In this document: in pieces, positions 6,052 to 24,721 of the stretch
Layout: each line of letters opens with the position of its first letter
Numbering within the stretch: position 1 is the stretch's first letter
Source of the DNA: Thermococcus barophilus MP
GTDB taxonomy: Archaea > Methanobacteriota_B > Thermococci > Thermococcales > Thermococcaceae
Assembly: GCF_000151105.2 (NCBI RefSeq)
Contig: NC_014804.1
Span: forward strand, 1-64,000
Length of the DNA: 64,000 bases
Direction: 5' to 3'
Made by a program: the position numbers and the translations under genes
The notes under the pieces: generated by a model
Told to the model about the DNA's origin: nothing
What the model saw: only the letters and a program-made list of their open reading frames with translations
Databases searched by the model: none

Positions 6052-6120
6052 GGTGCTCCCTCCATAAATGAAATCGAAAGTTATATAAGCTGAATTTTTA
6101 TAAAACTTTTGGTGAAAATC

Positions 6121-6969: not shown

Positions 6970-6981
6970 AAAAGGAAGAGA

Positions 6982-8103: not shown

Positions 8104-8171
8104 ATTCCCACCTCTCGGAAAATCCTCCTTTGATAGTTCCTATGATGGGCTTTAAACGCCTTTATCATATG

Positions 8172-8549: not shown

Positions 8550-8756
8550 CCTTTAAAACTTTATACAAAACTTTATACCATGAGTCTTTCCATTATCAAT
8601 ATCCCAGCTCTCTGTTATGCTAATTGGAGATGTCAAAACTCTTTTAATCGTAGAAAAGCTTTTAAACTGGAGGGACTCTCTGAAAAACATATCGATCGAC
8701 TTGTAAAAGTGAAAATTAAGCATTTGGAAGCCTATAAAGCAAAGGAGATGGTTGTC
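8550..8756 (+). other. Upstream region of the alpha-mannosidase gene
   Basis: This region is in frame with the mannosidase but is not part of the protein: the GH38 N-terminus begins at the ATG at 8757, which has AAAGGAG 9 nt upstream. It contains a tandem AAAACTTTATAC (8556-8567, 8568-8579) with two TATA-like boxes, and an AAAGCTTTTAAACTG segment near 8656 that could be a second TATA element. No gene is supported here. Confidence 0.5.
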
Positions 8757-11414
8757 ATGAAAGAAAAGGTAATTTATTTTCTTCCTCACACACATTGGGA
8801 TAGAGAATGGTATCTGCCTTTTCAGATATTTAGGGCGAGACTCCTTCATGTAATAGACGTGCTTTTAGAGATGCTTGAGAAATTTCCAGAATTCAAGTTT
8901 AACCTGGATGGTCAGGTAATAGCCCTTGAGGACTACTTGGAGATCGAAAAGGATCCTCAGAAAACTGAAACCTTATTTTCAATGATTCGCAATGGAAGGA
9001 TCTCAGTAGGGCCATTTTATGTTCTTCCAGATGAGTTCCTAATTTCTGGGGAAACCTTTATCCGAAACTTCCTCATTGCACAAAGAGTTTTGGAGGAACT
9101 GTCTTTACCTTCAATGAAAGTTGCGTATTTCCCTGATATGTTTGGGCATTCTGCGTATGTGCCGACTTTAATAAGAGGGCTTGGGATGGATTCCGTTCTT
9201 ATATGGCGTGGTGTGGGAGATAAATGTCGTGATACAGAGTTTATATGGAAGGGACCAGATGGAAGCGAGGTTCTTTGCATAAACATAATAAGAGGTTATT
9301 GGAATTTAGGAGTTCCCTCCAGTGATTACCATGAATTTAAGAGAATGGTGGAAAAGGAAGTTGAGTTTCTGTTCAAGCACTCTCCGAGCGGTCACATACT
9401 CTTAATGGCAGGGAACGATCATAGATTCCCCTTTCCCCTGTTACCAGACTTCGTTAGAAAGTTGAATTCAGAGGGCTTAAAGTGTAAAATCGTAACCCTC
9501 GATGAATATGCTCAAATTTTGCAGAGAATGGAACTCAGCTTGAAGAAGATAGAGGGAGAAATGCGTGATTCGAAATATGCCCCAATACTTAAGGATGTTG
9601 CTTCAGCTCGTATCCATCTTGAGCAGAGGAGTCATCTAATAGAAAAAGAACTTGTGAGTATCGTCGAACCACTGAGTGCCATTGCATATGTTTATAGTCT
9701 GCCACTGGGTTCAGTTCTGAACCTATTGTTCTATGCATGGAAGCTCTTTTTGAAAACACTTCCCCATGATGACATATGTGGATGCAGCATTGACCAGGTT
9801 CACAAGGAAATGGAGGTGCTCCAAGATCAGGTTCTTCAGCTCATTAAAGTCATAAAATTAGAGCTCGTGAATAAGATAGCAGAGACATTAGTGAAAAATG
9901 GGACAGAAAATGGAAATCTTCAGCTTTTTGTATTCTCACCCTTTGAAAGGAAAACAAGAACGGTAGTTGAGAAAGAACTCTACATGCCTGAAGAGCTTCC
10001 TGAGAATTTACTTGAACGATTAGTGGTTGTGGAAAAGGGGAAAAAACTGCCGACAGTTGTTGAATACATAAAAGAGAGGGTCTTTGATGGAATACAGGTT
10101 TTGAGTAATACATTTGAGGAAGAGTACATTGCAAGATTTCTCACGGAGGAGGCACCTCCTCAGCTGAAAAAGGGAAAAGTTGTAAAAATCAAATTTGAGG
10201 TGGAGCTTCCGCCAATGGGCTTTAAAATATTTAATATTGAATTTGACAGCGGAATCCTTAGACCAGAGGAGGTATCAAAGAATGTCATAGAAACAGCATT
10301 CCTTAAAGTTAACGTTAATGAAGATGGCACGTTAACAATTGAAGACAGGAGAACAGGTAGGATGTACAGAAACCTCTTCTTCCTTGAAGATGCAGAAGAT
10401 GTAGGCGACGAGTACAACTACTCTCCCTCAAAAAATCCTGAAATAGTAACAACTCTTGGACAGAAGGCTAAAATTAAACGCATAACGGAAGATTCTATTG
10501 GATTTTCCGTGGAGGTTGAACATGAACTTAGACTGCCAGAATCTTTTGACTTTGAGAGGGAAAGAAGATCTGAGGAGAAAGTCTCAATGCCTGTTAATAT
10601 TACATACGTAATTTACAAGAGGAGTCCAAGGGTTGACATTAAAATTGAATTTGAGAATATCGCAAAGGATCACAGACTGAGGGTGCATATTCCACTTCCA
10701 GTGCATGTGGAAACAAATATATCAGATGATTACTTTGGTATAGTGACAAGGCCCAACAAGATTGAGATTTCGGAGGATCTTTCTCAGTATTCTGAAGTCC
10801 CTGAGTCAAGGTACCCAATGCAGAACTTTGTTTACATCGCGGATGATACTGGTGGGGCTGGTATATCTACAAGAGGACTTAAAGAATATGAAACAATACA
10901 GAAAGATGGAGAAGTTGAAGTTGCTCTTACATTACTGAGAAGCGTTGGTATGCTCTCCAGACCAGGACTACTAACTCGGAGTGAGGATGCAGGTCCTTCA
11001 TTTTTAACACCTGAGGCACAATGTCTGGGAAACCATATTGCAGAATTTTCAGTATGGTTTACATATAAGCATGACTTGATTGAAGCTTACAATTTTTCCA
11101 GAAGGTATCAGATTTTTCCTCCGGTATTTTCCATTAGAGGAATAAGGGAAACGGAGATTTCACTTTTAAGTTTAGAGCCAGAATGCCTTATTTTGAGTTC
11201 ATTTAAAGTATCCGAAGATGGAGATGGTACTATAATTCGATTTTATAATGTGAAAGACATGGATGTTAATGCAACTGTAAAACTGGGATGGGCTCCTAAA
11301 GAGGTTTGGCTTGCAAACATGGCAGAGAAACCAATCAAAAAGATCAAAACCAATGGAAATATCATTAAATTAAAAGTCGGAGCGAATGAGGTGATAACTC
11401 TCAAGGTAGTTTAA
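8757..11414 (+). CDS. GH38 alpha-mannosidase
   Basis: This 885-aa cytosolic enzyme removes alpha-linked mannose residues. Zinc and catalytic marks of GH38 are all present: FLPHTHWDREWY at residues 8-19, YFPDMFGHSAYVPTLIRG (catalytic nucleophile Asp), and LPHDDICGCSIDQVH (zinc His). Beta-sandwich domains follow, including GDEYNYSP and the late ISTRGLKEYE. The upstream extension to 8541 lies over a pseudogene and is rejected. The gene stands between GH130/manA and an Lrp regulator, so it belongs to mannoside utilisation. Close relatives include mannosylglycerate hydrolase, so the compatible solute itself is a possible substrate. Confidence 0.93.
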   Translation: MKEKVIYFLPHTHWDREWYLPFQIFRARLLHVIDVLLEMLEKFPEFKFNLDGQVIALEDYLEIEKDPQKTETLFSMIRNGRISVGPFYVLPDEFLISGETFIRNFLIAQRVLEELSLPSMKVAYFPDMFGHSAYVPTLIRGLGMDSVLIWRGVGDKCRDTEFIWKGPDGSEVLCINIIRGYWNLGVPSSDYHEFKRMVEKEVEFLFKHSPSGHILLMAGNDHRFPFPLLPDFVRKLNSEGLKCKIVTLDEYAQILQRMELSLKKIEGEMRDSKYAPILKDVASARIHLEQRSHLIEKELVSIVEPLSAIAYVYSLPLGSVLNLLFYAWKLFLKTLPHDDICGCSIDQVHKEMEVLQDQVLQLIKVIKLELVNKIAETLVKNGTENGNLQLFVFSPFERKTRTVVEKELYMPEELPENLLERLVVVEKGKKLPTVVEYIKERVFDGIQVLSNTFEEEYIARFLTEEAPPQLKKGKVVKIKFEVELPPMGFKIFNIEFDSGILRPEEVSKNVIETAFLKVNVNEDGTLTIEDRRTGRMYRNLFFLEDAEDVGDEYNYSPSKNPEIVTTLGQKAKIKRITEDSIGFSVEVEHELRLPESFDFERERRSEEKVSMPVNITYVIYKRSPRVDIKIEFENIAKDHRLRVHIPLPVHVETNISDDYFGIVTRPNKIEISEDLSQYSEVPESRYPMQNFVYIADDTGGAGISTRGLKEYETIQKDGEVEVALTLLRSVGMLSRPGLLTRSEDAGPSFLTPEAQCLGNHIAEFSVWFTYKHDLIEAYNFSRRYQIFPPVFSIRGIRETEISLLSLEPECLILSSFKVSEDGDGTIIRFYNVKDMDVNATVKLGWAPKEVWLANMAEKPIKKIKTNGNIIKLKVGANEVITLKVV

Positions 11415-11452
11415 AAATTTAAAAATTATTGTATTATTGGGGGTGGAATCGA

Positions 11453-11905
11453 ATGCCAGACCTTGACGAGATAGATAGAGAAATTTTACTTTTATTAAAA
11501 GATAACGCAAGAATGTCACTCACAGATATTGCCAAGAAAGTTGGGCTGAGTGTGATGGGGGTTAAAAACAGGATAAAGAAGCTTGAAGAAAGGGGCATAA
11601 TCGAGGGATATTCGGCAAATATAAGCCTTTCGAGACTTGGGTATGATATCATGGCATTTGTTGAAATAAGTGTGGAAGCAAGAGTGAGAAGAGAGGTTGC
11701 AGAGGCACTGCAAAAGCGTAAGGAAGTTATAGAGCTATATGAGGTCACAGGGACATGTGATTTTATGGCCAAAATAGTTGTCAGAAACATGGAGGAGTTA
11801 AGAGAATTTCTGGCAATCACTTTGGCTAAGATGGAGGGAATTATATCAACTCAGACATTGCTTATAATTAGGAATTACAGAATTAAGTTTGACAAGTTAT
11901 TGTAG
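11453..11905 (+). CDS. Lrp/AsnC-family transcriptional regulator
   Basis: The 150-aa protein has an N-terminal helix-turn-helix (DREILLLLKDNARMSLTDIA, then KVGLSVMGVKNRIKKLEERG, residues about 7-45) and a C-terminal RAM ligand/oligomerisation domain. Size and architecture match full-length Lrp proteins. ATG 11453 follows GGGGGTGG. It sits directly after the alpha-mannosidase and before a stand-alone RAM gene and the eight-gene sugar-acid operon, so it is a good candidate local regulator. A/T-rich repeats of the type GTTTAAA-N-TTTAAA upstream of it (11409-11425) and in the 12.2-12.4 kb gap could be its operators. Confidence 0.92.
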   Translation: MPDLDEIDREILLLLKDNARMSLTDIAKKVGLSVMGVKNRIKKLEERGIIEGYSANISLSRLGYDIMAFVEISVEARVRREVAEALQKRKEVIELYEVTGTCDFMAKIVVRNMEELREFLAITLAKMEGIISTQTLLIIRNYRIKFDKLL

Positions 11906-11921
11906 GTGAGGGGTGATCGGA

Positions 11922-12167
11922 GTGAAGGGGATCATGGCATTTCTTTTTATAAAAACTCAACCTAAGAATCGACAGGTTCCTGTTGAAGATGAAATATCCA
12001 GAATGAAAGGCGTCTTGCATTTATATGAGGTTCTTGGAGAGTACGACATGTGTGTGCATGTTCATGCTGGGACGAGGGAAGAGCTTTCAAATTTGCTTTA
12101 CAATATCTCAACTGTTGAGGGAGTTAAAGAAATTACCACAATAATCATATCTAAGAGGATTAAATGA
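11922..12167 (+). CDS. Stand-alone RAM/AsnC ligand-binding domain protein
   Basis: The 81-aa protein consists only of the C-terminal alpha-beta domain of Lrp proteins: MAFLFIKTQ, then YEVLGEYDMCVHVHA (the G-x-YD motif of the ligand pocket) and GVKEITTIIISKRI. There is no helix-turn-helix. GTG 11922 has GAGGGGTGA 5 nt upstream; an ATG at 11934 is the alternative. It follows the full Lrp by 16 nt and is surely co-transcribed. Single-domain RAM proteins can form mixed oligomers with Lrp proteins or bind effectors, so it may be a co-sensor for the neighbour. That role is inference. Confidence 0.85.
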   Translation: MKGIMAFLFIKTQPKNRQVPVEDEISRMKGVLHLYEVLGEYDMCVHVHAGTREELSNLLYNISTVEGVKEITTIIISKRIK

Positions 12168-12190
12168 AGTCTCAATATTTCTTGGCTTAA

Positions 12191-12209
12191 GTTAAATTTT
12201 AAATTTAAC
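12191..12209. promoter_or_regulatory. A/T palindrome after the regulator genes (candidate operator)
   Basis: GTTAAATTTTAAATTTAAC is a perfect 9+1+9 inverted repeat. A related GTTTAAATTTTAAAG occurs at 12346-12360, directly before the TATA box of the next operon, and AGTTTAAAAATTTAAA at 11409-11424 before the Lrp gene. Lrp-family proteins bind such A/T-rich palindromes. Confidence 0.45.
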
Positions 12210-12220
12210 ATCGAAAACCC

Positions 12221-12244
12221 CAGTAGATTGCATGTTCTCTACTG
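12221..12244. repeat. Inverted repeat CAGTAGA/TCTACTG
   Basis: Seven-base perfect arms (12221-12227 and 12238-12244) surround a 10-nt loop. It is either an operator or a hairpin at the 3' end of the regulator transcript. Confidence 0.4.
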
Positions 12245-12323
12245 AAGATATTTCAAAAACTGGATATTTGATGGACAGAGAGATTCCTTAAAGAATTTTG
12301 ATCTACGTGTATCTACCTTTAAG

Positions 12324-12376
12324 TGCAGGAATGTTCTGCAGTGTAGTTTAAATTTTAAAGAAAATTCTTATATATT
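12324..12376 (+). promoter_or_regulatory. Promoter of the sugar-acid operon with an upstream palindrome
   Basis: The TATA box CTTATATATT (12367-12376) sits about 34 nt before the first gene. Just upstream are GTTTAAATTTTAAAG (12346-12360) and the imperfect 17-bp palindrome TGCAGGAATGTTCTGCA (12324-12340, one mismatched pair). Their positions beside BRE/TATA suit control by the adjacent Lrp protein. Nothing else was seen in the 242-bp gap. Confidence 0.55.
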
Positions 12377-12409
12377 GTTTGTATCTTAAAGCGGCATGAG
12401 GTGTTCACA

Positions 12410-13606
12410 ATGGATGATATGCTGGCTGCTGTTCTATACGCAAAATGGGATCCAAAACCCGAATATAAGCCCACTCCAAAGGACATTGAAGGTAAACTGA
12501 CATACCTTGGAGGGCTTGTGTGGAGGTATCCTGAGCTTAGGGTGGAGCGTAGACCAATTCCAAAGATCAAAGAGGACGAAGTCCTGATAAAAGTTAAAGC
12601 ATGTGGCATATGTGGGTCTGATATACACATGTATGAATCCGACAAGGATGGCTATATTCTTTATCCGGGGCTTACGGCATTTCCGTGTGTTCTCGGACAT
12701 GAATTTTCGGGTGAAATTGTTAAGGTTGGGGAAAAGGCATACAATCAGTGGGGAGAAAAATTTGAGGTTGGAACACCAGTAACGGCTGAGGAAATGGTAT
12801 GGTGTGGCTATTGTAGACACTGTAGGGATGGTTATCCAAATCACTGCATCAATCTCCAAGAAATTGGATTTAGCAGAGATGGTGCTTTCGCTGAATACAT
12901 TGCTGTTCCAGCAAGGGTTGTCTGGGAGATAACAGAAATTGTAGAAAGATACGGGGAGAAAAAAGGTTATGAAGCTGGAGCATTAGTTGAACCAACCTCT
13001 GTTGCGTACAATGGGATCTTTGAAAGGGGAGGAGGTTTCAGACCTGGGGCATACGTGGTTGTATTTGGTGCCGGCCCTATAGGACTGGCTGGAATTGCAC
13101 TATCCAAAGCTGCCGGGGCTGCCAAGGTTATAGCAGTTGAGATCGCAGAAGCAAGGCAAAAGTTAGCAAAGGAAATGGGTGCAGATGTCGTTATTGATCC
13201 AACTAAAATAGATTCAGTTTCCGGGAAAATACTTGAAGTTACACATGGAGAAGGTGCTGATATGTATGTGGAAGCTGCTGGGGCTTTCCCAAAGACATGG
13301 CCAGCAATTGAAGAGACAATATGGAATGGTGAAAAAGTTAACGCAAAAGTTGTTGCCATCGGAAGGGCTGTAACACATGTTCCTCTTCAATTTGAAGTTC
13401 TGCAGGTTAGAAGAGCGCAGGTTTTTGGAGCCCAGGGGCATTCTGGACATGGAATCTTCCCGAGTGTTATTAATCTGATGGCATCCGGAAAAATTGATAT
13501 GACAAAAATAGTGACCCACAGGTTCAAACTTGAAGATGCAGCTGAAGCATTGAAATTTGCGAGTAAGCAGAAAAGCAACATCGGGAAGGTTTTGATAAAG
13601 CCCTAA
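12410..13606 (+). CDS. iolM: Zinc dehydrogenase, IolM-like (scyllo-inosose dehydrogenase)
   Basis: The 398-aa MDR-family zinc dehydrogenase has catalytic zinc residues in ACGICGSDIHM and LGHEFSGEIV, structural zinc cysteines in WCGYCRHCRDGYPNHC, and the NAD site VFGAGPIGLAG. It is longer than usual (about 340-350) because of an N-terminal insertion containing LYAKWDPKPEY and TYLGGLVWRYPELRVE. These segments match my memory of Thermotoga maritima IolM (TM0412), which oxidises scyllo-inosose to a diketo-inositol. The next gene resembles IolN, the partner hydrolase, in the same relation as in Thermotoga. ATG 12410 has GAGGTG 6 nt upstream. Substrate is inferred from this pairing. Confidence 0.72.
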   Translation: MDDMLAAVLYAKWDPKPEYKPTPKDIEGKLTYLGGLVWRYPELRVERRPIPKIKEDEVLIKVKACGICGSDIHMYESDKDGYILYPGLTAFPCVLGHEFSGEIVKVGEKAYNQWGEKFEVGTPVTAEEMVWCGYCRHCRDGYPNHCINLQEIGFSRDGAFAEYIAVPARVVWEITEIVERYGEKKGYEAGALVEPTSVAYNGIFERGGGFRPGAYVVVFGAGPIGLAGIALSKAAGAAKVIAVEIAEARQKLAKEMGADVVIDPTKIDSVSGKILEVTHGEGADMYVEAAGAFPKTWPAIEETIWNGEKVNAKVVAIGRAVTHVPLQFEVLQVRRAQVFGAQGHSGHGIFPSVINLMASGKIDMTKIVTHRFKLEDAAEALKFASKQKSNIGKVLIKP

Positions 13607-13660
13607 CATCACTTTTATTCTTTTTGAGCTTCGGATGTCATGCTAAATGGAGGTGTAAGA

Positions 13661-14755
13661 ATGTCACGTGAAATCCCAAAGGATTTGGTGTTTGAAGACA
13701 CCCCCGTTGGAAGACTGGAAAAATATATATGGACCGCAAGTGAAGAAGAAATAGACAGAATTTTGGAGGAATTTGGAATTCCCAGTCCGCCTGAACTGGC
13801 TAAGCCAGGTGTTTACATTCAAACAACCCCAGGATACAGGGTTTTTGAAGAAGTCAGACAGTGTGATGTTGTGTTGATTCCTATTGGAAGTACGGAATTT
13901 CACGGCAACCACTTACCCTCAGGAACAGACACCCTCTATGTTACCCAGATAAGTGAAGCCGTGAGGAGGTACATGAAGAAAAAGGGAAAACCTGTAGCGA
14001 TAACCTGGCCAATAAACTATGGCTCCCATCCTTGGCACCATTACGGAATGCCTGGAACAGTGATAATTGAGGAAGACCACCTGAAGGATTATATCATTGA
14101 TGTCATGCTGGGACTTTGGAACCTCGGCTATAGAAAGCAGATACTCATAAACAACCACGGTCACTTCTGGGTTCTTGAATCTGCTATTCAGGAATTTATG
14201 AAAAAGTATCAGCTGCCGGGGATATATATTGCTCTTGATTGGCACAGGGCGGCAGGAAAATTCTTCCGAACCAAAGAGAGGGGAGGGGAATTTGAGACAG
14301 ACTTTGTTCATGCAGATGAGGCTGAAACATCAATAGCCCTGCTTCTCTTCCCAAGAGAGATGGTTGATATGGACAAAGCAGTTGATACTACTCCAAGGGC
14401 TTATCTGCCGGATGGTCACTTTGATAAAGCTGTGGATGGTCTGCTGAGACCAATGAGATGGAGCAGTGCTGAGGGTCATATTCCAATTGAGATAGTAAAT
14501 ACTCCTGAAGGAGTTGTTGGAAAAGCCACGCTCGCTGATGCAAAAAAAGCAAAACGAGCTATAGCATTTATACTTAAATACTTGGAGCTATTGATTGACC
14601 AAATCCTTGAGAAATTCCCACCTGGAGAGGTTCCGCCGGTGGAAGAAGTGACCTTTAGAACAAGAGAAGAGATGGAAGATTATCTCAAGCTTCCGGGAGA
14701 TGAAGGATGGAAACCTGTTTATGGACTTGTAAAGAGATTGGGCGGAAAAGGCTGA
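13661..14755 (+). CDS. iolN: Creatininase-family hydrolase, IolN-like
   Basis: The 364-aa metal-dependent amidohydrolase-fold protein belongs to the creatininase family: IPIGSTEFHGNHLPSGTDT, HPWHHYGMPGTV, LINNHGHFW and FVHADEAETSIALLLFP supply the Glu/His/Asp metal ligands. It is over 100 residues longer than creatininase or MftE. The N-terminal LVFEDTPVGRLEKYIW and C-terminal PPVEEVTFRTREE agree with my memory of Thermotoga IolN (TM0413), which opens the ring of a diketo-inositol to 5-dehydro-L-gluconate. GGAGGTG precedes ATG 13661. Together with the IolM-like gene this is the strongest pointer to cyclitol catabolism. Confidence 0.72.
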   Translation: MSREIPKDLVFEDTPVGRLEKYIWTASEEEIDRILEEFGIPSPPELAKPGVYIQTTPGYRVFEEVRQCDVVLIPIGSTEFHGNHLPSGTDTLYVTQISEAVRRYMKKKGKPVAITWPINYGSHPWHHYGMPGTVIIEEDHLKDYIIDVMLGLWNLGYRKQILINNHGHFWVLESAIQEFMKKYQLPGIYIALDWHRAAGKFFRTKERGGEFETDFVHADEAETSIALLLFPREMVDMDKAVDTTPRAYLPDGHFDKAVDGLLRPMRWSSAEGHIPIEIVNTPEGVVGKATLADAKKAKRAIAFILKYLELLIDQILEKFPPGEVPPVEEVTFRTREEMEDYLKLPGDEGWKPVYGLVKRLGGKG

Positions 14756-14791
14756 TCTTCGTTTTTTACTTATATCGTTGGGGGGTCTGAA

Positions 14792-15814
14792 TTGAAGGCT
14801 CTTGTTAAATACGCCAGAGGGCCTTGGAATATTGAGCTTAGAGATGTTCCAGAGCCCAAAAGCCGGGAAGGTTATATAATTGTTGATGTGAAAGCTGCGG
14901 GAATATGTGCCTCTGATCTGCTGATAATCCATGATAAAGGGCATCCTTATGAGCCTCCAGTTATTCTGGGTCACGAGTTCTCGGGAGTTATCGCTGAGGA
15001 CAAGGGGGAGTGGAAAAAGGGTGATAGGGTTACCTCCCAGACGACATTTTCCACTTGTGGAAAGTGTTATCTGTGCAAATCTGGCTATCCCCAACACTGT
15101 CCAGAGAAGAAAGTGATAGGCATAAAAGCGAATGGAGCATTCACTGAAAAAATTTTGGTTCCGGTGAGCGGTTTGCACAGAATACCCAAAAATATGAGCT
15201 TTGAAGAAGCAGCCATTACAGAGATCGGGGCTGACGTTGTTTACGCTTTGAATGAGAGAGCAAATCTGCAACCCGGAGAATTTGTAGTTATTTTTGGCCC
15301 TGGAGCAGTTGGATTATTTGCTGTCCAAGTGGCTAAAGCAACGGGAGCTGAGGTTGCTATAGTTGGCACAAAGATTGAAAGGGATGAATACAGGTTGAAG
15401 CTGGCTGAAAAGCTTGGGGCTGATCATGTATTGTATGCCGAAGAAGATCCTGTTTCAGAAGTAAAGTATTTAACAAATGGTAAAGGGGCTGATATTGCCT
15501 TTGAAGCAAGCGGTGCTGCTCCAGCGGTTCTCCAAGCTTTGCAAATAACAAGAAATCTTGGAAGGATAATAGCCTTTGGAATCCCCAAGGGTAGTGTAAC
15601 TGTTCCGTGGAACATGATTGTTTTTAAAGCAGTGGAAGTGATTTTCCATTTGTCCTCTTCATGGACATCTTGGGAAAAGATCCTTTATCTGATGAGAGAA
15701 GGAAAAGTAAAAACAAAACCATTAATCTCTAAACCTTTTAGGCTTGAAGAATGGGAAAAGGCAATTAAAGAGGCCGAGACCGGGTTCAGTCCAAGGGTTA
15801 TTCTAAAGCCATGA
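14792..15814 (+). CDS. Zinc-dependent sugar (acid) dehydrogenase
   Basis: This 340-aa MDR-family enzyme has the catalytic zinc motifs GICASD and LGHEFSGVI, structural zinc cysteines CGKCYLCKSGYPQHC, and the Rossmann motif GPGAVGLFA. Length fits sorbitol/threonine dehydrogenases and the hexonate oxidoreductases LgoD and RspB. Translation starts at TTG 14792 with GGGGGT upstream. It lies between the ring-opening hydrolase and altronate dehydratase, so it may reduce the keto-acid product to the aldonate used by UxaA, or oxidise the starting polyol. The choice cannot be made from sequence. Confidence 0.8.
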   Translation: MKALVKYARGPWNIELRDVPEPKSREGYIIVDVKAAGICASDLLIIHDKGHPYEPPVILGHEFSGVIAEDKGEWKKGDRVTSQTTFSTCGKCYLCKSGYPQHCPEKKVIGIKANGAFTEKILVPVSGLHRIPKNMSFEEAAITEIGADVVYALNERANLQPGEFVVIFGPGAVGLFAVQVAKATGAEVAIVGTKIERDEYRLKLAEKLGADHVLYAEEDPVSEVKYLTNGKGADIAFEASGAAPAVLQALQITRNLGRIIAFGIPKGSVTVPWNMIVFKAVEVIFHLSSSWTSWEKILYLMREGKVKTKPLISKPFRLEEWEKAIKEAETGFSPRVILKP

Positions 15815-15830
15815 CCAGAGGTAGTATATC

Positions 15831-16100
15831 ATGAAGTTCGTGATAATGAACAGAAAGGATAATGTTGCAACTGCAATAGTGCCACTGAAAAAGGGAGAAA
15901 AAGTTGTGGTTGGAGGCAGAAAAATAATTCTGCTTGAAGACATCCCGCAAGGACACAAATTTGCTATTCGGGACATAAATGCTGGTGATTTCATAATTAA
16001 ATACGGGGAAATTATTGGAATCGCCACGAGGAACATAAAGGCTGGTGAATATGTACACATTCATAATGTCAGGAGCAGGTATCAGGGGGCGATGAAATGA
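15831..16100 (+). CDS. uxaA: Altronate dehydratase small subunit (UxaA N-terminal SAF domain)
   Basis: The 89-residue protein has the SAF-type fold of the UxaA N-terminal domain, with DNVATAIVPLKKGEKV and IPQGHKFAIRDINAGDFIIK, and ends in the typical VHIHNVRS. In bacteria this domain is fused to the catalytic part; in many archaea and here it is a separate gene. Its stop overlaps the start of the large subunit by 4 nt (ATGA), indicating translational coupling. Confidence 0.9.
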   Translation: MKFVIMNRKDNVATAIVPLKKGEKVVVGGRKIILLEDIPQGHKFAIRDINAGDFIIKYGEIIGIATRNIKAGEYVHIHNVRSRYQGAMK

Positions 16101-17281
16101 AATTGGGTGAGATAAAAGGCTGGAGGCGAGAGAATGGGGACTTTGGGATAAGAAACCACATCGTGGTTCTATCCTCGGTGGCATGTGCAAACCATGCAGC
16201 TCTGGAAATTGCGAGGAGAACAGGAGCAATCCCGATAATTCAAGAAGAAGGCGCTTGTGGGATGTTTGGGGAAGATAGGAAGCGGTTTTTGAGGTGTATG
16301 GCTAACGTTGGCTCTCATCCAAACGTTGCATGGACATTAGTAGTAGGTCTCGGGTGTGAAGGCATCGATGCTCATCAACTTGCTGATGAAATATCTAAGA
16401 GGGGTAGAAACGCAGAATCGTTATTGATTCAAGAACTTGGGATGGATAAAACAGTGGAGAAAGGTATTGAACTGGTAAACAGAGCAAAGGAAAATCTAAC
16501 TCCACGGAGAGAGACTGCTGGAGTTGAAGAGCTCGTTATTGGCTTGAAGTGCGGGGCATCTGACTACACTTCTGGCTTAATCTCCAATCCATCTGTTGGA
16601 AAAGCCGTGGACATTCTTATAGAATATGGTGGAACTGCCATAATTACTGAGAGGCTTGAACTTGTTGGAGCCGAGCAAATCTTGGCAAGAAGGGCTAAAA
16701 GCAAAGAGGTTGCTGAAGATTTTCTTAGGAGAATAAAGAAAGCTGTTGAGGATGTTAACAAAAGAGGGGTTGACTGGATAGGATCTCAGCCGTCAATGGG
16801 AAACATAAAGGGGGGTCTAACTACCATAGAGGAAAAATCTCTTGGCGCAGTCAAAAAGGCTGGGAATGCTCAATTGGAGGGGTGTCTCGATTACGGAGAA
16901 AAACCCAAAGGTAGAGGGCTGTACTTTATGGACGGTCCTGGATATGACGTTAAAGCAGTAAGTGGGCTAATGTGTGCCGGGAGTCATATAATACTTTTTA
17001 CAACGGGTTTGGGAACTTATCTTGGTTCTCCAGTTTCACCTGTAATTAAAATAACCGGGAATCCGACTACTGCGAGGAAGCTTCGTGATGCAATAGACGT
17101 TGACCTGAGCATTCTTCTTGAGGAGATAATATCAAGGGATGCTTCTCTCGACGAAATACTTGAAATTGGTGGGAGGATGATACTGGAAGAAATAGTACGT
17201 GTTGCAAATGGGAAGCTGACAAAGGCAGAGAAAAGCCAACATATTGAGTTTTCAATTGAACTAACTGGCATAATAGCTTAG
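16097..17281 (+). CDS. uxaA: Altronate dehydratase large subunit (UxaA catalytic domain)
   Basis: The 394-aa protein is the catalytic part of UxaA/GarD-family aldonate dehydratases, which convert D-altronate (or D-galactarate) to a 2-keto-3-deoxy acid with iron. Marks are GIRNHIVVLSSVACANHAA, QEEGACGMFGED (conserved Cys/His cluster), VVGLGCEG, LKCGASDYTSGLISNPSVG and FMDGPGYDVKAVSGLMCAG. It is followed 11 nt later by the KDG-kinase-like gene. Altronate is the most likely substrate by family; another hexonate formed from the IolN-like product is possible. Confidence 0.9.
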   Translation: MKLGEIKGWRRENGDFGIRNHIVVLSSVACANHAALEIARRTGAIPIIQEEGACGMFGEDRKRFLRCMANVGSHPNVAWTLVVGLGCEGIDAHQLADEISKRGRNAESLLIQELGMDKTVEKGIELVNRAKENLTPRRETAGVEELVIGLKCGASDYTSGLISNPSVGKAVDILIEYGGTAIITERLELVGAEQILARRAKSKEVAEDFLRRIKKAVEDVNKRGVDWIGSQPSMGNIKGGLTTIEEKSLGAVKKAGNAQLEGCLDYGEKPKGRGLYFMDGPGYDVKAVSGLMCAGSHIILFTTGLGTYLGSPVSPVIKITGNPTTARKLRDAIDVDLSILLEEIISRDASLDEILEIGGRMILEEIVRVANGKLTKAEKSQHIEFSIELTGIIA

Positions 17282-17292
17282 GGGTGTCTAAA

Positions 17293-18252
17293 ATGCCTTC
17301 TGCAGTTTCTTTTGGGGAAACGATGATTAGGTTCTCAACGAAGAATTTTGAACGAATTGAACAGGCAAGGGAGTTTGAAGTTAGTATTGGTGGGGCCGAA
17401 TCAAACTTTGCGATAGCCTTTGCCAGGCTTGGTGGAAGATCCGCGTGGATAAGCAAGCTCACCAATAACCCTCTTGGGAGGCTAATAGTTAACCGGATCA
17501 GGGAGCATGGGGTAGACGTATCAAATGTTATATGGACAAAGGAGTACAGGGTTGGATTGTACTTCATAGAATTTGGCAGAAAACCAAGGGGGATTGAGGT
17601 TCTTTATGACAGAAAGAACTCAGCGTTTGCTAATATCCAGCCGCATGAAGTAAACTGGGATGTGCTCGCTGAATACGATGTATTTCACACTACTGGGATA
17701 ACCGTTTCACTGAGCGAAAGTTGCAGAAAGTCTGTGAAAATGGGGATCACAAAAGCAAAAGAATTTGGCACGAAGGTTTCGTTTGATGTTAATTACAGAG
17801 CAAAGTTGTGGTCTCCCGAAGAAGCGTTCAAAGCTCTTGACGCGATTCTCAAAGAGGTGGACATACTCATTGTCACAAAGGAAGATGCAAAGAGTGTTCT
17901 GCTTGCTGAAGGAAGTTATGAGGACATTGCACGGGAGCTGTATCAAAGATATGGCCCTGAGGTTCTTGTGCTCACCCTCGGTTCTGAAGGAGCAATGGCA
18001 ATTAAGGATGGAAGGATTTACAGAGTTAAACCTTATCCAATAGAGGTTGTTGACAGGATAGGAGCTGGAGATGCCTTTGATGCTGGTTTTATATATAGGT
18101 ACTTGGAGAAGCAAGATGTAAAAGAAGCATTAGAATGGGGAATTGCTATGGCAGCATTGGCCCATACAATACCCGGTGATCCAGTGTATATAGTTAGAGA
18201 CGAAGTTAAAAGGCTCATTAAAGGCAGAGAGTATTGCGAAATAATGAGGTGA
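17293..18252 (+). CDS. kdgK: PfkB-family sugar kinase, probable 2-keto-3-deoxygluconate kinase
   Basis: The 319-aa ribokinase-fold enzyme has the N-terminal PfkB motif IGGAESNFAIAFARLGG and the C-terminal anion-hole/catalytic motif DRIGAGDAFDAGFIY. The order FGETMIRFS at the start and VSFDVNYRAKLWS in the middle are typical of KDG kinases. It should phosphorylate the 2-keto-3-deoxy acid made by UxaA. ATG 17293 has GGGGTG 6 nt upstream; a GTG at 17284 is less likely. Its 3' end lies 5 nt before the aldolase gene. Confidence 0.88.
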   Translation: MPSAVSFGETMIRFSTKNFERIEQAREFEVSIGGAESNFAIAFARLGGRSAWISKLTNNPLGRLIVNRIREHGVDVSNVIWTKEYRVGLYFIEFGRKPRGIEVLYDRKNSAFANIQPHEVNWDVLAEYDVFHTTGITVSLSESCRKSVKMGITKAKEFGTKVSFDVNYRAKLWSPEEAFKALDAILKEVDILIVTKEDAKSVLLAEGSYEDIARELYQRYGPEVLVLTLGSEGAMAIKDGRIYRVKPYPIEVVDRIGAGDAFDAGFIYRYLEKQDVKEALEWGIAMAALAHTIPGDPVYIVRDEVKRLIKGREYCEIMR

Positions 18253-18257
18253 TTTTG

Positions 18258-19142
18258 ATGATTGAAGGAATTTTTCCTCCGGTTGTAACACCTTTTAAGG
18301 AAGATGAAAGCATTGATGAGGAAAGATTTGCATCATTTTTGGAGTTTTTGGTTAAGAGAAAAGTTAGCGGACTTTTTCTTCTTGGAACTAATGGGGAAGG
18401 GCTCTCACTTGAAAATGAGGAGAAAATCAGGATCATGGAAATAGCCGTGGAAACCGTGAAGGGAAAAGTCCCTGTTATAGCTGGAACTGGAGCAATAACC
18501 ACAAGGGAAACCATAAAGTTAAGTAAAGAGGCTGAGAGGATCGGAGTTGACGCAATCCATGTGATAGTTCCCTATTATTATCCATTGTCAAGAGAGGGTA
18601 TCTTAAGGCACTATGCTAAAGTTTCTCAAGAAGTTGATCTTCCAATTCTGATCTATTATATTCCCAGCAGAACAGGAAACAAAATTGACGTAAAGATGCT
18701 GTGTGAGCTTGCTAAATTGAGAAACATAATTGGAATTAAAGACAGCTCCAAAGATGTGACATGGTTTTATAATGCTATTATGGCTGTAAAAAAGGAAAAT
18801 CCAGATTTTGTATTTTTGGGTGGCAGTGATGCATTGATATACACCCATTTGATGTTGGGAGGGAATGGTGCAGTTTCAGCGATAGCAAATGCATTTCCCG
18901 AAATAGTGATTGAGCTATACAGGGAGTTTAGGGCAGGAAATTTAGCCAAGGCAAAAGAGATTCAGGATAGAATTCTGATTATAAGACAGATATTGAAGAA
19001 ATACCCATATCTTTCAGGTATCAAAGCAGCTTTAAAACTTAGAGGTATTGATATGGGTGTTTTGAGGAGTCCTTTAGTTTTTTTGAATGAAGATCAATTG
19101 CAATGTTTGAGGGAGGAACTGAAAGCTGTTGGGGTTATATAG
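18258..19142 (+). CDS. kdgA: DHDPS-family aldolase, probable KD(P)G aldolase
   Basis: The 294-aa TIM-barrel lyase belongs to the DapA/KdgA/NanA superfamily. IIGIKDSSKD carries the Schiff-base Lys, LIYYIPSRTGNKI carries the catalytic Tyr, and FLLGTNGEGLSL is the substrate-binding loop. In this operon, after a KDG-type kinase, cleavage of the phosphorylated or free 2-keto-3-deoxy acid to pyruvate and (phospho)glyceraldehyde is the natural role. Lysine biosynthesis is unlikely in this context. ATG 18258 has GAGGTGAT 6 nt upstream and replaces the earlier in-frame TTG. Confidence 0.85.
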   Translation: MIEGIFPPVVTPFKEDESIDEERFASFLEFLVKRKVSGLFLLGTNGEGLSLENEEKIRIMEIAVETVKGKVPVIAGTGAITTRETIKLSKEAERIGVDAIHVIVPYYYPLSREGILRHYAKVSQEVDLPILIYYIPSRTGNKIDVKMLCELAKLRNIIGIKDSSKDVTWFYNAIMAVKKENPDFVFLGGSDALIYTHLMLGGNGAVSAIANAFPEIVIELYREFRAGNLAKAKEIQDRILIIRQILKKYPYLSGIKAALKLRGIDMGVLRSPLVFLNEDQLQCLREELKAVGVI

Positions 19143-19153
19143 GGGGTGTTGTT

Positions 19154-20233
19154 GTGAAAGCTGCAGTATTTAAAGGGGAAGGAAAGCTTGTAATTGAGGA
19201 CGTTCCAAAGCCCGATTTGAGCAAAGACCTAATTATTCCAAAAAAATACAAACCAAATGAATTTGTAAAAGTCAGAAAAGAAGAGCTTGTCCTTTTGAGG
19301 GTTTTAGCAGCGGGAATTTGTGGAACCGACCTGCACATACTAAGCGTCCCCCCAGGACACACTGCTACCCCTGGAGCAATACTTGGACATGAGTTCGTTG
19401 GTGAAGTTGTGGACATAGGGAGTGAAGTTGATAACGTTAATGTGGGAGACCTTGTAGCGGTTGATCCAAATATAAAGTGCGGAAAATGCTGGTTCTGTAG
19501 AAACGGCTATCCAAACATGTGTCCAGAAATGACAACTCTTGGAATATATGGAAATGGCGGATTCGCGGAATATGCAGTTGTCCCTGCTAAGCAGGTGTAT
19601 GTGCTCCCAAGGAACATGGATATTGACAAGGCAGTTTTATTTGAACCTCTGACAACGGCAGTTCACAACTGGGAAAAGGTGAATTTAAAGCCAGGAGAGA
19701 ACATTCTGATATTTGGAGCTGGGCCAATAGGGGCGTTTTTTATTAAACTCGCACAAATTTCGGGGGCCAATGAGATAATAGTTTCCGAACCAAGTTCCTT
19801 GAGAAGAGAAATCGCCAGAAAGCTTGGGGCAACAAAGGTTGTTGATCCCATAAATGAAGACGTTGTTGAAATTGTCCACTCAGTCACCAAATATGGGGTC
19901 GATGTTGCTATAGATGCAAGCGGAGTTCCAGTTGTCATAGAGCAAGCTGTTAGGGCATTAAGACCTGGAGGTAGGTTGTCCCTCTTTGGCCAGCAGAACA
20001 TTCATGCCTTTGCAGATAAAGTTAGTTTTACCCTGATGAATCAGAAGGAACTCCATATATTTGGATCATACGCTGCAGCAAAAAGCTTTGATCAGACGAT
20101 TGAAATACTGAAAAAAAGAGAGACCGATGACCTTAAGAACATAATTACCCATCGGCTTAAGCTTGAAGATATTCACAAAGGACTGGAGCTCATGAGAAAA
20201 AAGGAAGCCCTAAAGATAGTTATTTATCCGTAG
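19154..20233 (+). CDS. Zinc-dependent dehydrogenase, sorbitol/threonine DH type
   Basis: This 359-aa MDR protein is the last gene of the eight-gene operon. Catalytic zinc motifs are AAGICGTDLHIL and LGHEFVGEVV; structural zinc cysteines are CGKCWFCRNGYPNMC; the cofactor site is FGAGPIGAFFIK. An insertion of about 20 residues rich in Lys (PKKYKPNEFVKVRKEE) precedes the first zinc motif. GTG 19154 follows AGGGGGTG directly after the aldolase stop. No Gfo/Idh/MocA inositol dehydrogenase is present in the window, so this enzyme or the one at 14792 may do the first oxidation. Substrate unknown. Confidence 0.8.
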   Translation: MKAAVFKGEGKLVIEDVPKPDLSKDLIIPKKYKPNEFVKVRKEELVLLRVLAAGICGTDLHILSVPPGHTATPGAILGHEFVGEVVDIGSEVDNVNVGDLVAVDPNIKCGKCWFCRNGYPNMCPEMTTLGIYGNGGFAEYAVVPAKQVYVLPRNMDIDKAVLFEPLTTAVHNWEKVNLKPGENILIFGAGPIGAFFIKLAQISGANEIIVSEPSSLRREIARKLGATKVVDPINEDVVEIVHSVTKYGVDVAIDASGVPVVIEQAVRALRPGGRLSLFGQQNIHAFADKVSFTLMNQKELHIFGSYAAAKSFDQTIEILKKRETDDLKNIITHRLKLEDIHKGLELMRKKEALKIVIYP

Positions 20234-20314
20234 ATATGCTGAGGATTACAAAAAAGGATATAATGTTAAAGTGAATTCCAATTTGTGACAAGAGATGGGC
20301 AGGAGGAATTGGGA

Positions 20315-21064
20315 GTGATACTATACTTCATAGGAACCGCAGCTTCTGAAGGGATCCCTAATCCATTATGCAAATGCTCAACTTGCCAAGAGGCAAGAAA
20401 GTTTGCTTTTGCTCAAAGAAAACCGCCCACCCTTGCAGTGATTTTGAAGAAAGGAGGTATAATACTTTTTGATGTTGGTTCTGATATTGGTGAGCATCTG
20501 CCAGGGGTTTCAATTAGAACTGTATTCCTGACACATTGGCACAATGACCATACGTATGGTCTTTACAAGTTGAGATGGGTGGCAAAGAAGCTCTCACTAT
20601 ATGCACCGAGAGAAGGTGCCGATGCCACAATTCTCAATGAACCAAGAAACCTTGAAATTCAGTTCATCAAAGCAGGGGACACAATAAAGCTTCCTCCTCT
20701 AAAGATAACTGCATTAAAGCTGAATCACTTCCCAGAAACCCTCGGGTATCTTTTGGAGAGCAAAAAGAAAAAAGTTGCTATCCTGTATGATACTAAGGGA
20801 CTTCCTGAAGAAACATATGAGCTTCTTAAAAAGAAGAAGCCTAAAGTTGCTCTTGTTGATGCCACATATCCTCCAGGCGTTGAGATGCCGACCCACAACA
20901 ACGTTGATGAAGCCGCAGTCCTTGGCTTGAGTGTCGCTGAAAAAGTTTATCTAACCCATATTGCGCATCACAATCTGCCATTCACGAAGCTGCTTGAATA
21001 CGTGATTGAAAAGTATGGGGAGAAAGTTAACGTTGCATACGATGGCATGGTGGTGTATGTGTAA
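20315..21064 (+). CDS. MBL-fold phosphodiesterase, PhnP-like
   Basis: The 249-aa metallo-beta-lactamase-fold hydrolase has the metal motif LTHWHNDHTYG and later HNNVDEA and LTHIAHHNLP. Near the N-terminus IPNPLCKCSTCQEARK gives the three-cysteine zinc site typical of PhnP (phosphoribosyl 1,2-cyclic phosphate phosphodiesterase) and its relatives. GTG 20315 has AGGAGGAA 6 nt upstream; the upstream in-frame codons are not conserved-looking. It is the last gene before the mpgP promoter and may be either part of the accessory block or a native neighbour. Substrate is uncertain. Confidence 0.8.
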   Translation: MILYFIGTAASEGIPNPLCKCSTCQEARKFAFAQRKPPTLAVILKKGGIILFDVGSDIGEHLPGVSIRTVFLTHWHNDHTYGLYKLRWVAKKLSLYAPREGADATILNEPRNLEIQFIKAGDTIKLPPLKITALKLNHFPETLGYLLESKKKKVAILYDTKGLPEETYELLKKKKPKVALVDATYPPGVEMPTHNNVDEAAVLGLSVAEKVYLTHIAHHNLPFTKLLEYVIEKYGEKVNVAYDGMVVYV

Positions 21065-21119: not shown

Positions 21120-21203
21120 CTGCATTAACTAAACACCAATCCGGAGCATGGGAGTCTTTTGTTCTTAATATGCCGCATCTATATAACTTTATCAGGTGAT
21201 AGA

Positions 21204-21941
21204 ATGAGAGTGATATTCCTTGACCTTGATAAAACTTTAATTGGAGATGATTACTCTCCAGAACCAGCAAAACAAATAATTGACGAGCTAAAAAGAAGAG
21301 GGTTTAGGATAATTTTTAATTCATCAAAAACAAGGGCAGAGCAGGAGTATTACAGAAAAGCTTTGAATGTTGAGGATCCATTTATAGTGGAGACAGGAAG
21401 CGCAATATACATCCCAAAGAACATATTCCCATTCAAATTTAATTTCACAAGGGAAACTCAAAAATACTTCATCATAGAGCTTGGTGAAAGCTATAGGAAA
21501 ATTCAAAATGTTCTTAGTGAAATCAGCTGGGTATTTGGACTTAAATACTATGGAAATTCGACAATCGAGGAGATAATGAAATTTACGGGTTTGCCAAAGC
21601 ATCTTGCTGAGCTTGCAGCAAGGAGAGAATACTCAGAAACGATCTTCCGGTGGAGGAATGAAAAATTTGTGGATATAATTAAATCGAAAGGGCTTACAGT
21701 GTCAAAGGGAAGCAGATTCTATAATGTTCATGGAAATACAAACAAAGGAAAAGCTGCTCATGTGCTTTTGCTTTTATATTCTAAATTATTTGGAGATGTA
21801 GAAAGCTATGCTGTTGGAGACAGCTTTAATGACTTCCCCCTATTTGAAGTTGTTGATAAGGCGTTTATAGTCGGGAACTTAAAACATCCAGAGGCTGTGA
21901 ATATCAGTTCAATAAAAGAAGTGCTGGAGGTGATAGAATGA
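21204..21941 (+). CDS. mpgP: Mannosyl-3-phosphoglycerate phosphatase
   Basis: This 245-aa HAD-superfamily phosphatase removes phosphate from mannosyl-3-phosphoglycerate to give mannosylglycerate. Motif I is [12 protein letters not shown] (Asp7 nucleophile, Asp9 acid/base), motif [15 protein letters not shown], and the metal motif [11 protein letters not shown]. The Cof-type cap contains the conserved [13 protein letters not shown] 21204 has AGGTGAT upstream. It overlaps manC by 4 nt. It normally follows mpgS directly; here 17 kb separate them and it has its own promoter. Confidence 0.95.
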
Positions 21942-23320
21942 AGACTCTAATCTTGGCTGGAGGAAAAGGAACTCGTCTGTGGCCGCTGAGTAGAGAGTTA
22001 ATGCCAAAGCAGTTCATAAGGATATTTGATGATACCTCTCTTTTCCAAAAAACTGTGGAAAGAGCGCTGCTCTTCTCAAAACCGAAGGAGATTTTCATAG
22101 TAACCAACAAGGAATACCACTTCAGGGTTTTTGATGAGCTCAGAGACATGGGGATTGATATCCCAGAGGAAAACGTTCTCCTTGAGCCGGTTGGAAAAAA
22201 CACTCTTCCAGCTATTTACTGGGGGATAAGAACGATTAATGAGAATTTTGGTAAGTCCAAAGTTGCTGTTTTGCCCTCGGATCATTTAGTTGAGGTCAAT
22301 GAAAAATACACCGATGCATTTAAAAAAGCAGAAAAGCTTGCCGAGGCTTATTTCGTAACATTTGGAGTCAAGCCCACAAAGCCCCATACCGGTTACGGAT
22401 ACATAAAGCCTGGAGAGAAACTGGAGGTTGGTTATAAAGTCGCTGAATTTAAAGAAAAACCAGACTTAGAGACAGCGAAAAAATATGTCGAGGAAGGCTA
22501 CTACTGGAACAGCGGAATGTTCATGTTTGATACAGAGCTTTTCATTGAGGAGGTCAAAAAATTAACTCCCGATGTTTACAAGGCGTTTGAAGAGGCTAAG
22601 AGCATTGAAGAAGCCTATGAAATGGTTCCAGACATATCTGTCGATTATGGAATTATGGAAAAGACTGACAAAGCTGCAGTTGTGCCCTTGAACGTTTACT
22701 GGAATGACCTTGGAAGCTTTGATTCCATCTACGAAGCATTCAAAAAAGATCAAAACGGCAACGCAGTTAGGATAAGAGGATTAAAAGCCGAGTACATAGG
22801 AATTGACTCAAACAACAACTTGATTATAACAGAGCGTTTAACGGCGACGGTTGGTGTGAGAGATCTTATAATAATTGATACGGGAGATGCTCTACTTGTT
22901 GCATCAAGAGGGGAAGGTCAGAAAGTTAAGCTGGTTTATGAGAAGCTCAAAGAAAAAAATGATGAAAGAGCTATTGTCCACAGAACGGCTTACAGACCAT
23001 GGGGTTCTTATACCCTTCTCGAAGAGGGAGACCGCTATAAAATCAAGAGATTAACGGTATTGCCTGGAAAAAGACTTTCACTTCAAATGCACTATCACAG
23101 GTCGGAGCACTGGGTCGTTGTTAGAGGAACGGCAAAGGTTGTTGTTGAGGACAAAGAAATGCTCTTAAGACCAGGGGAAAGTGTTTTCATACCAGCTGGA
23201 GTTAAGCATAGATTAGAAAACCCAGGAAAAGTTGTTTTGGAAGTCATTGAGACCCAGATAGGCGAGTACCTCGGAGAAGATGATATAGTGAGGTTTCAAG
23301 ATGACTTCGGAAGAAGTTAA
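21938..23320 (+). CDS. manC: Bifunctional mannose-1-phosphate guanylyltransferase / mannose-6-phosphate isomerase
   Basis: The 460-aa protein makes GDP-mannose, the donor for MpgS, and isomerises fructose 6-phosphate to mannose 6-phosphate. The N-terminal nucleotidyltransferase begins [23 protein letters not shown] (the GGxGTR...K nucleotide motif), with [14 protein letters not shown] and FKEKPD further on. The C-terminal cupin isomerase has [27 protein letters not shown] and [12 protein letters not shown]. It is coupled to mpgP by an ATGA overlap and followed by manB. Confidence 0.95.
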
Positions 23321-23347
23321 ATGTCAAAAACAAAAAAGGTGATGAAA

Positions 23348-24721
23348 ATGGGAAAGCTGTTTGGAACATTTGGAGTAAGGGGAATTGCGAATGAAAAGAT
23401 AACCCCAGAATTTGCCCTTAAGATAGGGATGGCATTTGGAACTTTGCTGAAAAGAGAGCAGCCGGACAAAGAACTTTGGGTTGTCGTGGGAAGGGACACA
23501 AGAGTAAGCGGTGAAATGCTAAAAAATGCATTAATTTCTGGACTTCTAAGTGTCGGAGTGAACGTTATTGATGTGGACATTGCTCCAACCCCTGCAATTC
23601 AGTTTGCATGCAGATACTTTGGAGTTGACGGCGGGGCAGTAATTACTGCATCCCACAACCCTCCAGAATACAATGGAATTAAGCTTTTGGAACCAAATGG
23701 GTTGGGCTTAAAGAAGGAGAGGGAGGCTGTTGTGGAGGAGTTATTCTTCAAAGAAGAATTCGACATGGCAAAGTGGCATGAAATTGGCAGTTTAGAAAAG
23801 AGAGACATAATAAGACCTTACATCAATGCAATAAAGTCTAAGGTTGATGTTGAAGCAATAAAGAGGAGAAAGCCCTTTGTGGTGGTCGACACTTCAAACG
23901 GTGCAGGCTCGTTGGTTCTGCCCTACCTACTCAGGGAGCTTGGATGCAAAGTGGTCAGCGTGAATGCTCATCCAGATGGACACTTCCCGGCAAGAAATCC
24001 AGAGCCAAATGAAGAGAATCTGCAGGGATTCATGAAGATTGTCAAATCGTTGGGGGCAGATTTTGGTGTTGCTCAAGACGGGGATGCAGACCGTTCAGTG
24101 TTCATTGATGAGAATGGAAACTTCATTCAGGGAGATAAAACGTTTGCCCTCATTGTTAAGGCAATGCTTCAAGAACATGGCGGGGGCTTGGTTGTTACAA
24201 CAATAGCAACCTCACACATAATTGATGAGCTCGCAAAGCAGTATGGAGGAAAAGTACTCAAGACGAAGGTTGGAGATTTGATAGTTTCAAGAGCTTTGCT
24301 TGAGCACAACGGACTGGTTGGAGGAGAGGAGAACGGTGGTGTAATCTTTCCGGATCATGTCTTGGGCAGAGATGGAGCAATGACCGTGGCAAAGATAGTT
24401 GAGATATTTGCAAGGAGCGGAAAGAAGTTCAGCGAGCTCATTAACGAGCTTCCCAAGTTCTATCAGGTGAAGACAAAGAGGCATATTGAGGGAGATAGGC
24501 ATGTGATAGTTGAAAAAGTCGCCAAAATTGCGGAGCAGAAGGGCTTTAAGATCGACACAACAGATGGAACAAAGATCCTCTTTGACGATGGCTGGGTTTT
24601 GGTTAGAGCAAGCGGAACAGAGCCAATAATAAGGATTTTCGCAGAGGCGAGGAGCGAAGAGAAGGCTAAAGAATATCTTGATTTGGGACTGGGTCTTTTG
24701 GATGAGGCTTTGAATACCTGA
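23348..24721 (+). CDS. manB: Phosphomannomutase/phosphoglucomutase
   Basis: The 457-aa alpha-D-phosphohexomutase converts mannose 6-phosphate to mannose 1-phosphate for GDP-mannose synthesis. It has the phosphoserine loop VITASHNPPEYNGIK, the Mg site DGDADRSVF, the sugar loop GGEENGGVIFP and the phosphate-binding loop RASGTEPIIRIFAEA. ATG 23348 has AAAGGTGAT upstream; the frame is open from 23321. It is the third gene of the mpgP-manC-manB unit. Confidence 0.93.
   Translation: MGKLFGTFGVRGIANEKITPEFALKIGMAFGTLLKREQPDKELWVVVGRDTRVSGEMLKNALISGLLSVGVNVIDVDIAPTPAIQFACRYFGVDGGAVITASHNPPEYNGIKLLEPNGLGLKKEREAVVEELFFKEEFDMAKWHEIGSLEKRDIIRPYINAIKSKVDVEAIKRRKPFVVVDTSNGAGSLVLPYLLRELGCKVVSVNAHPDGHFPARNPEPNEENLQGFMKIVKSLGADFGVAQDGDADRSVFIDENGNFIQGDKTFALIVKAMLQEHGGGLVVTTIATSHIIDELAKQYGGKVLKTKVGDLIVSRALLEHNGLVGGEENGGVIFPDHVLGRDGAMTVAKIVEIFARSGKKFSELINELPKFYQVKTKRHIEGDRHVIVEKVAKIAEQKGFKIDTTDGTKILFDDGWVLVRASGTEPIIRIFAEARSEEKAKEYLDLGLGLLDEALNT

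Follow-up and report, generated by a model that had tools for sequence, protein, structure and literature searches.

The first 64,000 nucleotides of contig NC_014804.1 of Thermococcus barophilus MP (hereafter, the window), which form the start of a 2.06-Mb genome of the family Thermococcaceae (99.8% complete), contain at positions 12410-20233 of the forward strand an eight-gene operon that appears to serve the catabolism of inositol or a close cyclitol. The genes are intact, oriented head to tail and tightly packed, in the order IolM (12410..13606), IolN (13658..14755), a zinc dehydrogenase designated ADH3 (14792..15814), the N-terminal SAF-domain subunit (15831..16100) and the catalytic subunit (16097..17281) of a UxaA-type dehydratase, which overlap by 4 bases, a PfkB kinase (17284..18252), a DHDPS-family aldolase (18258..19142) and a second zinc dehydrogenase, ADH8 (19148..20233). 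NCBIfam and Pfam models recognised the families as IolM, IolN/creatininase, two further zinc dehydrogenases, SAF and GD_AH domains, a PfkB kinase and a DHDPS-fold aldolase. The ATG start of iolM at position 12410 is preceded by the ribosome-binding site GAGGTG, and an Rfam scan of positions 11000-21000 gave no match.

The operon is 95-100% identical in a metagenome-assembled genome labelled Thermococcus sp., of the same genus as the window genome. In a locus from another genus of the family (L018), the order of ten genes, including two regulator genes upstream, is kept, and the genes further upstream differ. All eight operon proteins are intact there and share 65-90% identity with those of the window, the best conserved being IolM, IolN, ADH8 and ADH3 (84-90%; IolM and IolN, 89-90%). 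The proportion of synonymous differences (pS) between the two loci is close to saturation (0.73-0.86) while that of nonsynonymous differences (pN) remains low (0.06-0.22), so that strong purifying selection acts on the operon genes. The eight-gene archaeal operon described in an earlier note, made from the window sequence without database searches, is thus confirmed. Across 115 genomes of the phylum, IolN above its model cut-off, the catalytic UxaA subunit and strong ADH3 matches were each found in the same four (G000, the window genome, with G112, G113 and G106), comprising the window genome, two congeneric genomes and one genome from a second genus; for the genes tested, the operon is an all-or-none block in the phylum.

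The first two genes are assigned to IolM and IolN by curated cut-off, sequence identity and trees, as the earlier note had proposed, and phylogeny, to which that note had pointed as the place where this assignment might fail, groups both with these families. The IolM protein, a zinc MDR enzyme predicted to be a scyllo-inosose 3-dehydrogenase, scores 561.6 bits on NF041097 (cut-off 450) and is 57% identical to PDB 3ip1, which we take to be Thermotoga maritima TM0412. It falls within an 11-row IolM clade (support 100/99), where it groups with IolM proteins encoded beside IolN in Bacteria. When 84,980 species genomes were scanned, 72 loci encoding IolM relatives emerged; a clear IolM is encoded at 58 loci outside Thermococcales, and at 43 of these IolN is no more than three genes away. 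A recurring gene set is frequent at bacterial IolM loci (L026, L028, L029, L031, L032 and L087; clusters c7, c8, c10 and c11) and consists of a 498-aa protein without an NCBIfam match, a mannonate-oxidoreductase-like SDR protein, a Lar_N protein and a 6-phosphogluconate dehydrogenase; the set suggests a further lower branch.

The second gene encodes a putative 3-dehydro-scyllo-inosose hydrolase of the creatininase fold, scoring 348 bits on NF041098 (cut-off 245) and retaining the E/H/D and H motif residues. The IolN proteins of L024-L090 and L166-L175 split into two branches that stand well apart, and members of both are encoded next to IolM. The window protein lies outside the branch of the sampled Thermotogaceae, across a long internal edge (length 1.04, support 100/100), and is 44-48% identical to most Thermotogae IolN proteins versus 51-65% to most others; among these loci, its branch is found beside IolM more often than that of the sampled Thermotogaceae. 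The kinship with the Thermotoga pathway claimed in the earlier note therefore holds for the two families, but not for the branch of IolN. Elsewhere in the archaea, IolN-family proteins above the cut-off were encoded in 21 of 398 sampled Thermoproteota genomes, some beside IolM, so that IolM/IolN clusters may be fairly common in this domain. The creatininase family has a further, shorter member in the window genome (G000:C1:1162024-1162596, L013), which scores below the IolN cut-off and is also encoded in G112 and G113.

We know of no assay for any member of the window IolN branch, a circumstance that favours the alternative that the operon serves hexuronates or other sugar acids, homologs of IolM and IolN having been recruited for another substrate. 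The lower half of the operon is indeed common to hexuronate pathways, and related operons with IolM and a split UxaA adjoin glycosidase genes in Thermoproteota. However, IolM and IolN, the best conserved of the operon genes, match cyclitol-specific equivalogs, and no uronate isomerase (UxaC) was found among the Pfam domains of the operon, no genome-wide search for it having been made, all of which makes the sugar-acid alternative quite improbable.

No Gfo/Idh/MocA gene, as would be expected for the inositol dehydrogenase IolG, is present in the operon. The window genome encodes three Gfo/Idh proteins (L001-L003), the best of which matches the IolG model TIGR04380 with 174 bits (cut-off 355). 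Of the 115 phylum genomes, 69 encode members of this family irrespective of the operon, and no such homolog is tied to the operon or confined to the genomes that carry it; L001-L003, which are phylum-wide and stand beside sugar-nucleotide or glycosyltransferase genes, were accordingly rejected as IolG. The statement of the earlier note that such a dehydrogenase is missing can thus be retained for the operon, with homologs elsewhere in the genome. By contrast, zinc dehydrogenases 39.5-44.5% identical to ADH8 are encoded within three genes of IolM in six bacterial loci, belonging to Thermotogae, Aerophobetes (two loci), Bacillota, Planctomycetota and Candidatus Hakubella. None of these six loci has a local Gfo/Idh gene, compared with 32 of the 52 other loci (Fisher p = 0.006). 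Some IolM loci are cut by contig ends, and when only the 34 loci outside Thermococcales that retain three genes to either side are counted, the figures are 0/2 versus 23/32, too few for significance. In Candidatus Hakubella, no match was obtained for IolG at E 1e-50 and none for IolO at 1e-10. In two Thermoproteota loci (L168 and L169), the gene order is IolN, IolM, ADH8-like, IolO. In a phylogenetic tree, ADH8 groups with seven ADH8-like proteins, two of them from Thermoproteota, apart from the threonine dehydrogenases (support 90/92); an eighth, fragmentary ADH8-like protein (L084) had joined this group in a previous tree. The window genome's own threonine dehydrogenase Tdh (L114) belongs to a different clade, and ADH8 was not retained as a plain threonine dehydrogenase.

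Since its relatives stand beside IolM where IolG is locally missing, ADH8 is likely to be a non-homologous replacement of IolG, that is, the inositol dehydrogenase of the operon. The roles of the two zinc dehydrogenases might instead be swapped, with ADH3, which directly follows IolN, acting as the cyclitol dehydrogenase and ADH8 as the keto-acid reductase, both being zinc MDR proteins without substrate-specific models. But it is the relatives of ADH8, not those of ADH3, that adjoin IolM at loci lacking IolG, and no ADH3-like gene was found in bacterial IolM loci, so that such an exchange is judged improbable.

The epimerase IolO converts 5-keto-L-gluconate to D-tagaturonate by inversion at C4, and D-altronate and D-idonate differ at C4 only. 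In all four operon genomes, the IolO profile gave no match even with a threshold of E 1e-5; of the PF01261 proteins of the window genome, the intact ones are endonuclease IV-like and hydroxypyruvate-isomerase-like, and none matches the IolO model. The genome-wide search thus extends the earlier observation that IolO is not seen at the locus. The accompanying idea that the two extra zinc dehydrogenases stand in for both IolG and IolO survives in its first half, through ADH8, and fails in its second, because the reaction of an epimerase cannot simply be taken over by a dehydrogenase. In the absence of IolO, reduction at C5 would give D-idonate, so that 2-keto-3-deoxy-6-phosphogluconate (KDPG), the intermediate previously proposed, is no longer expected, and the consistent route would instead run through D-idonate, 2-keto-3-deoxy-D-galactonate (KDGal) and its 6-phosphate (KDPGal).

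Each step of this route finds one candidate in the operon, reductase, dehydratase, KDGal kinase and KDPGal aldolase, with no C4 epimerase among them. ADH3 (PF08240 and PF00107) is proposed, by elimination, as the 5-keto-L-gluconate reductase giving D-idonate. The UxaA domain set (SAF, GD_AH second and C-terminal domains) is complete but split over two genes, a small subunit (PF08666, 52.6 bits) and a UxaA/GarD-type hexonate dehydratase catalytic subunit (PF04295 and PF20629), the putative D-idonate dehydratase. An independent link between IolM and UxaA is provided by two Thermoproteota loci (L171 and L172), in which IolM (496-499 bits, above cut-off) adjoins split UxaA genes and no IolO above cut-off is present. 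The best NCBIfam model for the PfkB protein, a candidate kinase of KDGal and of 2-keto-3-deoxygluconate (KDG), is NF041332, a bifunctional KDG/KDGal kinase. The putative KDPGal/KDPG aldolase (PF00701, 262.8 bits) has PDB matches of similar strength to DHDPS proteins and to YagE, which is described as a probable 2-keto-3-deoxygalactonate aldolase. The split UxaA and KDG-type kinase of the earlier note are therefore upheld, whereas its KDPG-type aldolase belongs to the DHDPS type and not to the classical KHG/KDPG type. A true DHDPS remains conceivable for this gene, which passes the dapA cut-off, but as the gene is part of a catabolic operon and has been conserved along with the genes of its other enzymes, we set that assignment aside.

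The most serious competitor of the D-idonate route is a Thermotoga-type sequence with a non-homologous epimerase. Such an enzyme would turn 5-keto-L-gluconate into D-tagaturonate, from which ADH3 would form D-altronate; UxaA would then yield KDG, and the compound cleaved would be KDPG. Altronate is the classical substrate of UxaA-type dehydratases, IolO is kept in the Thermoproteota loci with ADH8-like genes (L168 and L169), and IolO above the cut-off is also encoded by the archaea whose IolN proteins are the nearest relatives (G209 and G318); moreover, the analogous enzymes of Luteolibacter follow the 4R route (PMC12632266). Against this stands the failure of the IolO profile in all four operon genomes, although the operon otherwise has one gene per step, and we consider an unrecognised epimerase rather unlikely.

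Taken together, the preferred scheme would begin with the oxidation of a cyclitol to scyllo-inosose by ADH8, followed by its oxidation to 3-dehydro-scyllo-inosose by IolM and ring opening to 5-keto-L-gluconate by IolN, these two steps being the ones whose family assignment was tested. ADH3 would then reduce the latter at C5 to D-idonate, the split UxaA would dehydrate D-idonate to KDGal, the PfkB kinase would phosphorylate KDGal to KDPGal, and the DHDPS-type aldolase would cleave KDPGal to pyruvate and D-glyceraldehyde 3-phosphate, all presumably within the 4S stereochemical series. According to papers citing Rodionova (2013), the inositol pathway of T. maritima, encoded by the TM0411-TM0416 operon and comprising IolG, IolM, IolN and IolO, shares with the window the IolM and IolN families, a UxaA-type dehydratase, a KDG-type kinase and the predicted end products. 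The window operon differs in lacking IolG, IolO and transporter genes, in its split UxaA and DHDPS-type aldolase, and in the branch of its IolN. The regulators also differ, an Lrp pair in the window and the ROK regulator IolR in T. maritima (PMC3750489). The conversion of 5-keto-L-gluconate through D-idonate, KDGal and KDPGal to pyruvate and glyceraldehyde 3-phosphate is established in the L-glucose catabolism of Paracoccus laeviglucosivorans 43P (PMC12632266), whose lower part (LgnI, LgnE, LgnF and LgnG) corresponds, at the level of reactions, to the sequence of intermediates proposed here; strain 43P enters it from L-glucose via L-gluconate, whereas the window operon would enter from ring-opened inositol. 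In Luteolibacter LG18, the L-glucose/L-galactose pathway (Lgu) likewise passes 5-keto-L-gluconate and ends with reductase, dehydratase, kinase and aldolase, but takes the tagaturonate route with the C4 epimerase LguG and 4R-specific enzymes (PMC12632266). Finally, the Thermoproteota clusters (L022, L166-L169, L171 and L172) combine IolM with IolN or an IolN-like gene, but in none of them do ADH8, ADH3, split UxaA, kinase and aldolase occur together in a single IolO-free operon.

Several observations count against this scheme. The TIGR04380 cut-off is indecisive on the absence of IolG, since a Thermotogaceae Gfo/Idh gene beside IolM itself reaches only 173 bits, and the score alone therefore does not exclude L001-L003. 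The support of the ADH8 clade is short of full, and one of the Aerophobetes genomes (G121) encodes a Gfo/Idh protein of 306 bits away from the locus, so that the mutual exclusion with IolG is a local one. The kinase (352.8 bits) does not reach the NF041332 cut-off of 440, nor does the aldolase (169.9 bits) reach that of the archaeal KDG/KDPG aldolase model NF040954 (390); the latter passes the generic dapA model only and retains the DapA-like SRTG arginine motif. The dehydratase LguB of Luteolibacter is active on D-altronate and not on D-idonate (PMC12632266), no transporter lies within the operon, and every step of the route is deduced from sequence. On balance, a cyclitol operon ending in pyruvate is highly probable. 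For its D-idonate/KDGal ending, the arguments on the two sides are about equally strong, and the same even balance applies to the operon as a whole being an Lrp-controlled one that joins a Thermotoga upper to a Paracoccus-type lower pathway without IolG and IolO. Only tentatively can the locus be proposed as a complete, epimerase-free archaeal inositol pathway via D-idonate and KDPGal, with a zinc MDR dehydrogenase displacing IolG in both Bacteria and Archaea.

Upstream of the operon, on the same strand, lie genes for an Lrp/AsnC-family transcriptional regulator (11429..11905; Pfam HTH and AsnC ligand-binding domains), also found 5' of the operon in L018, and for a stand-alone Lrp/AsnC ligand-binding domain protein (11913..12167; PF01037, 47 bits), which adjoins the Lrp gene in all operon-bearing loci. 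This pair (11429-12167), overlooked in the earlier note, travels with the operon, and the Lrp protein is its probable regulator. In both genera, the region upstream of iolM contains two copies of a 14-base AT-rich motif. The forward-strand candidate operators of the window are AGTTAAATTTTAAA (12190..12203), which matches the degenerate form AGTTWAAWTTTWAA, and AGTTTAAATTTTAA (12345..12358), just 5' of a TATA-like CTTATAT. The degenerate form has only these two matches in the 64 kb, both upstream of iolM, against 0.03 expected; in L018, the exact AGTTTAAATTTTAA copy occurs twice upstream of iolM (10712 and 10877), and four matches were counted with one mismatch allowed, against 0.09 expected. 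As the pattern was picked after the alignment had been seen, these counts offer a lead only as to regulation.

A short way upstream (5029-11414) lie two GH130 mannoside phosphorylase-like genes, a ManA-like isomerase gene and a GH38 mannosylglycerate-hydrolase-like gene. These were not considered part of the operon, not being conserved beside it in the second genus, and a connection through mannosylated inositol solutes is speculative. A GH130-type gene also lies near the IolM/UxaA cluster of L171, and a distant GH38 gene (28%) near IolM in L024. Together, the operon and the mannoside genes sit between mannosyl-3-phosphoglycerate synthase and phosphatase (3093-4277 and 21159-24721), and thus split the mannosylglycerate synthesis cluster; in L018 the operon likewise adjoins this cluster, but in a different orientation. 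At 4207-4824, only a remnant of an OppF-like ATPase is present, where the close relative G113 keeps a whole transporter with solute-binding protein, permease and ATPase (L016, 969-6973), which suggests that about 6 kb has been deleted from the window genome.

Inositol is part of the heat-stress solutes made by hyperthermophilic archaea, and turnover of di-myo-inositol phosphate is one possible source of the cyclitol. In the literature available to us, we met no account of the catabolism of inositol by these archaea, Thermococcales included, and to our knowledge the D-idonate route is known only from L-glucose catabolism. The two key enzymes were already recognised by NCBIfam; what is added here is the probable entry enzyme and the probable exit of the IolM/IolN route. 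If correct, ADH8 would represent an unrecognised class of zinc-dependent inositol dehydrogenases, spread over several phyla where IolG is missing beside IolM, and the route would leave the inositol pathway by an epimerase-free exit through D-idonate, for which the operon offers a defined set of eight enzymes for testing.

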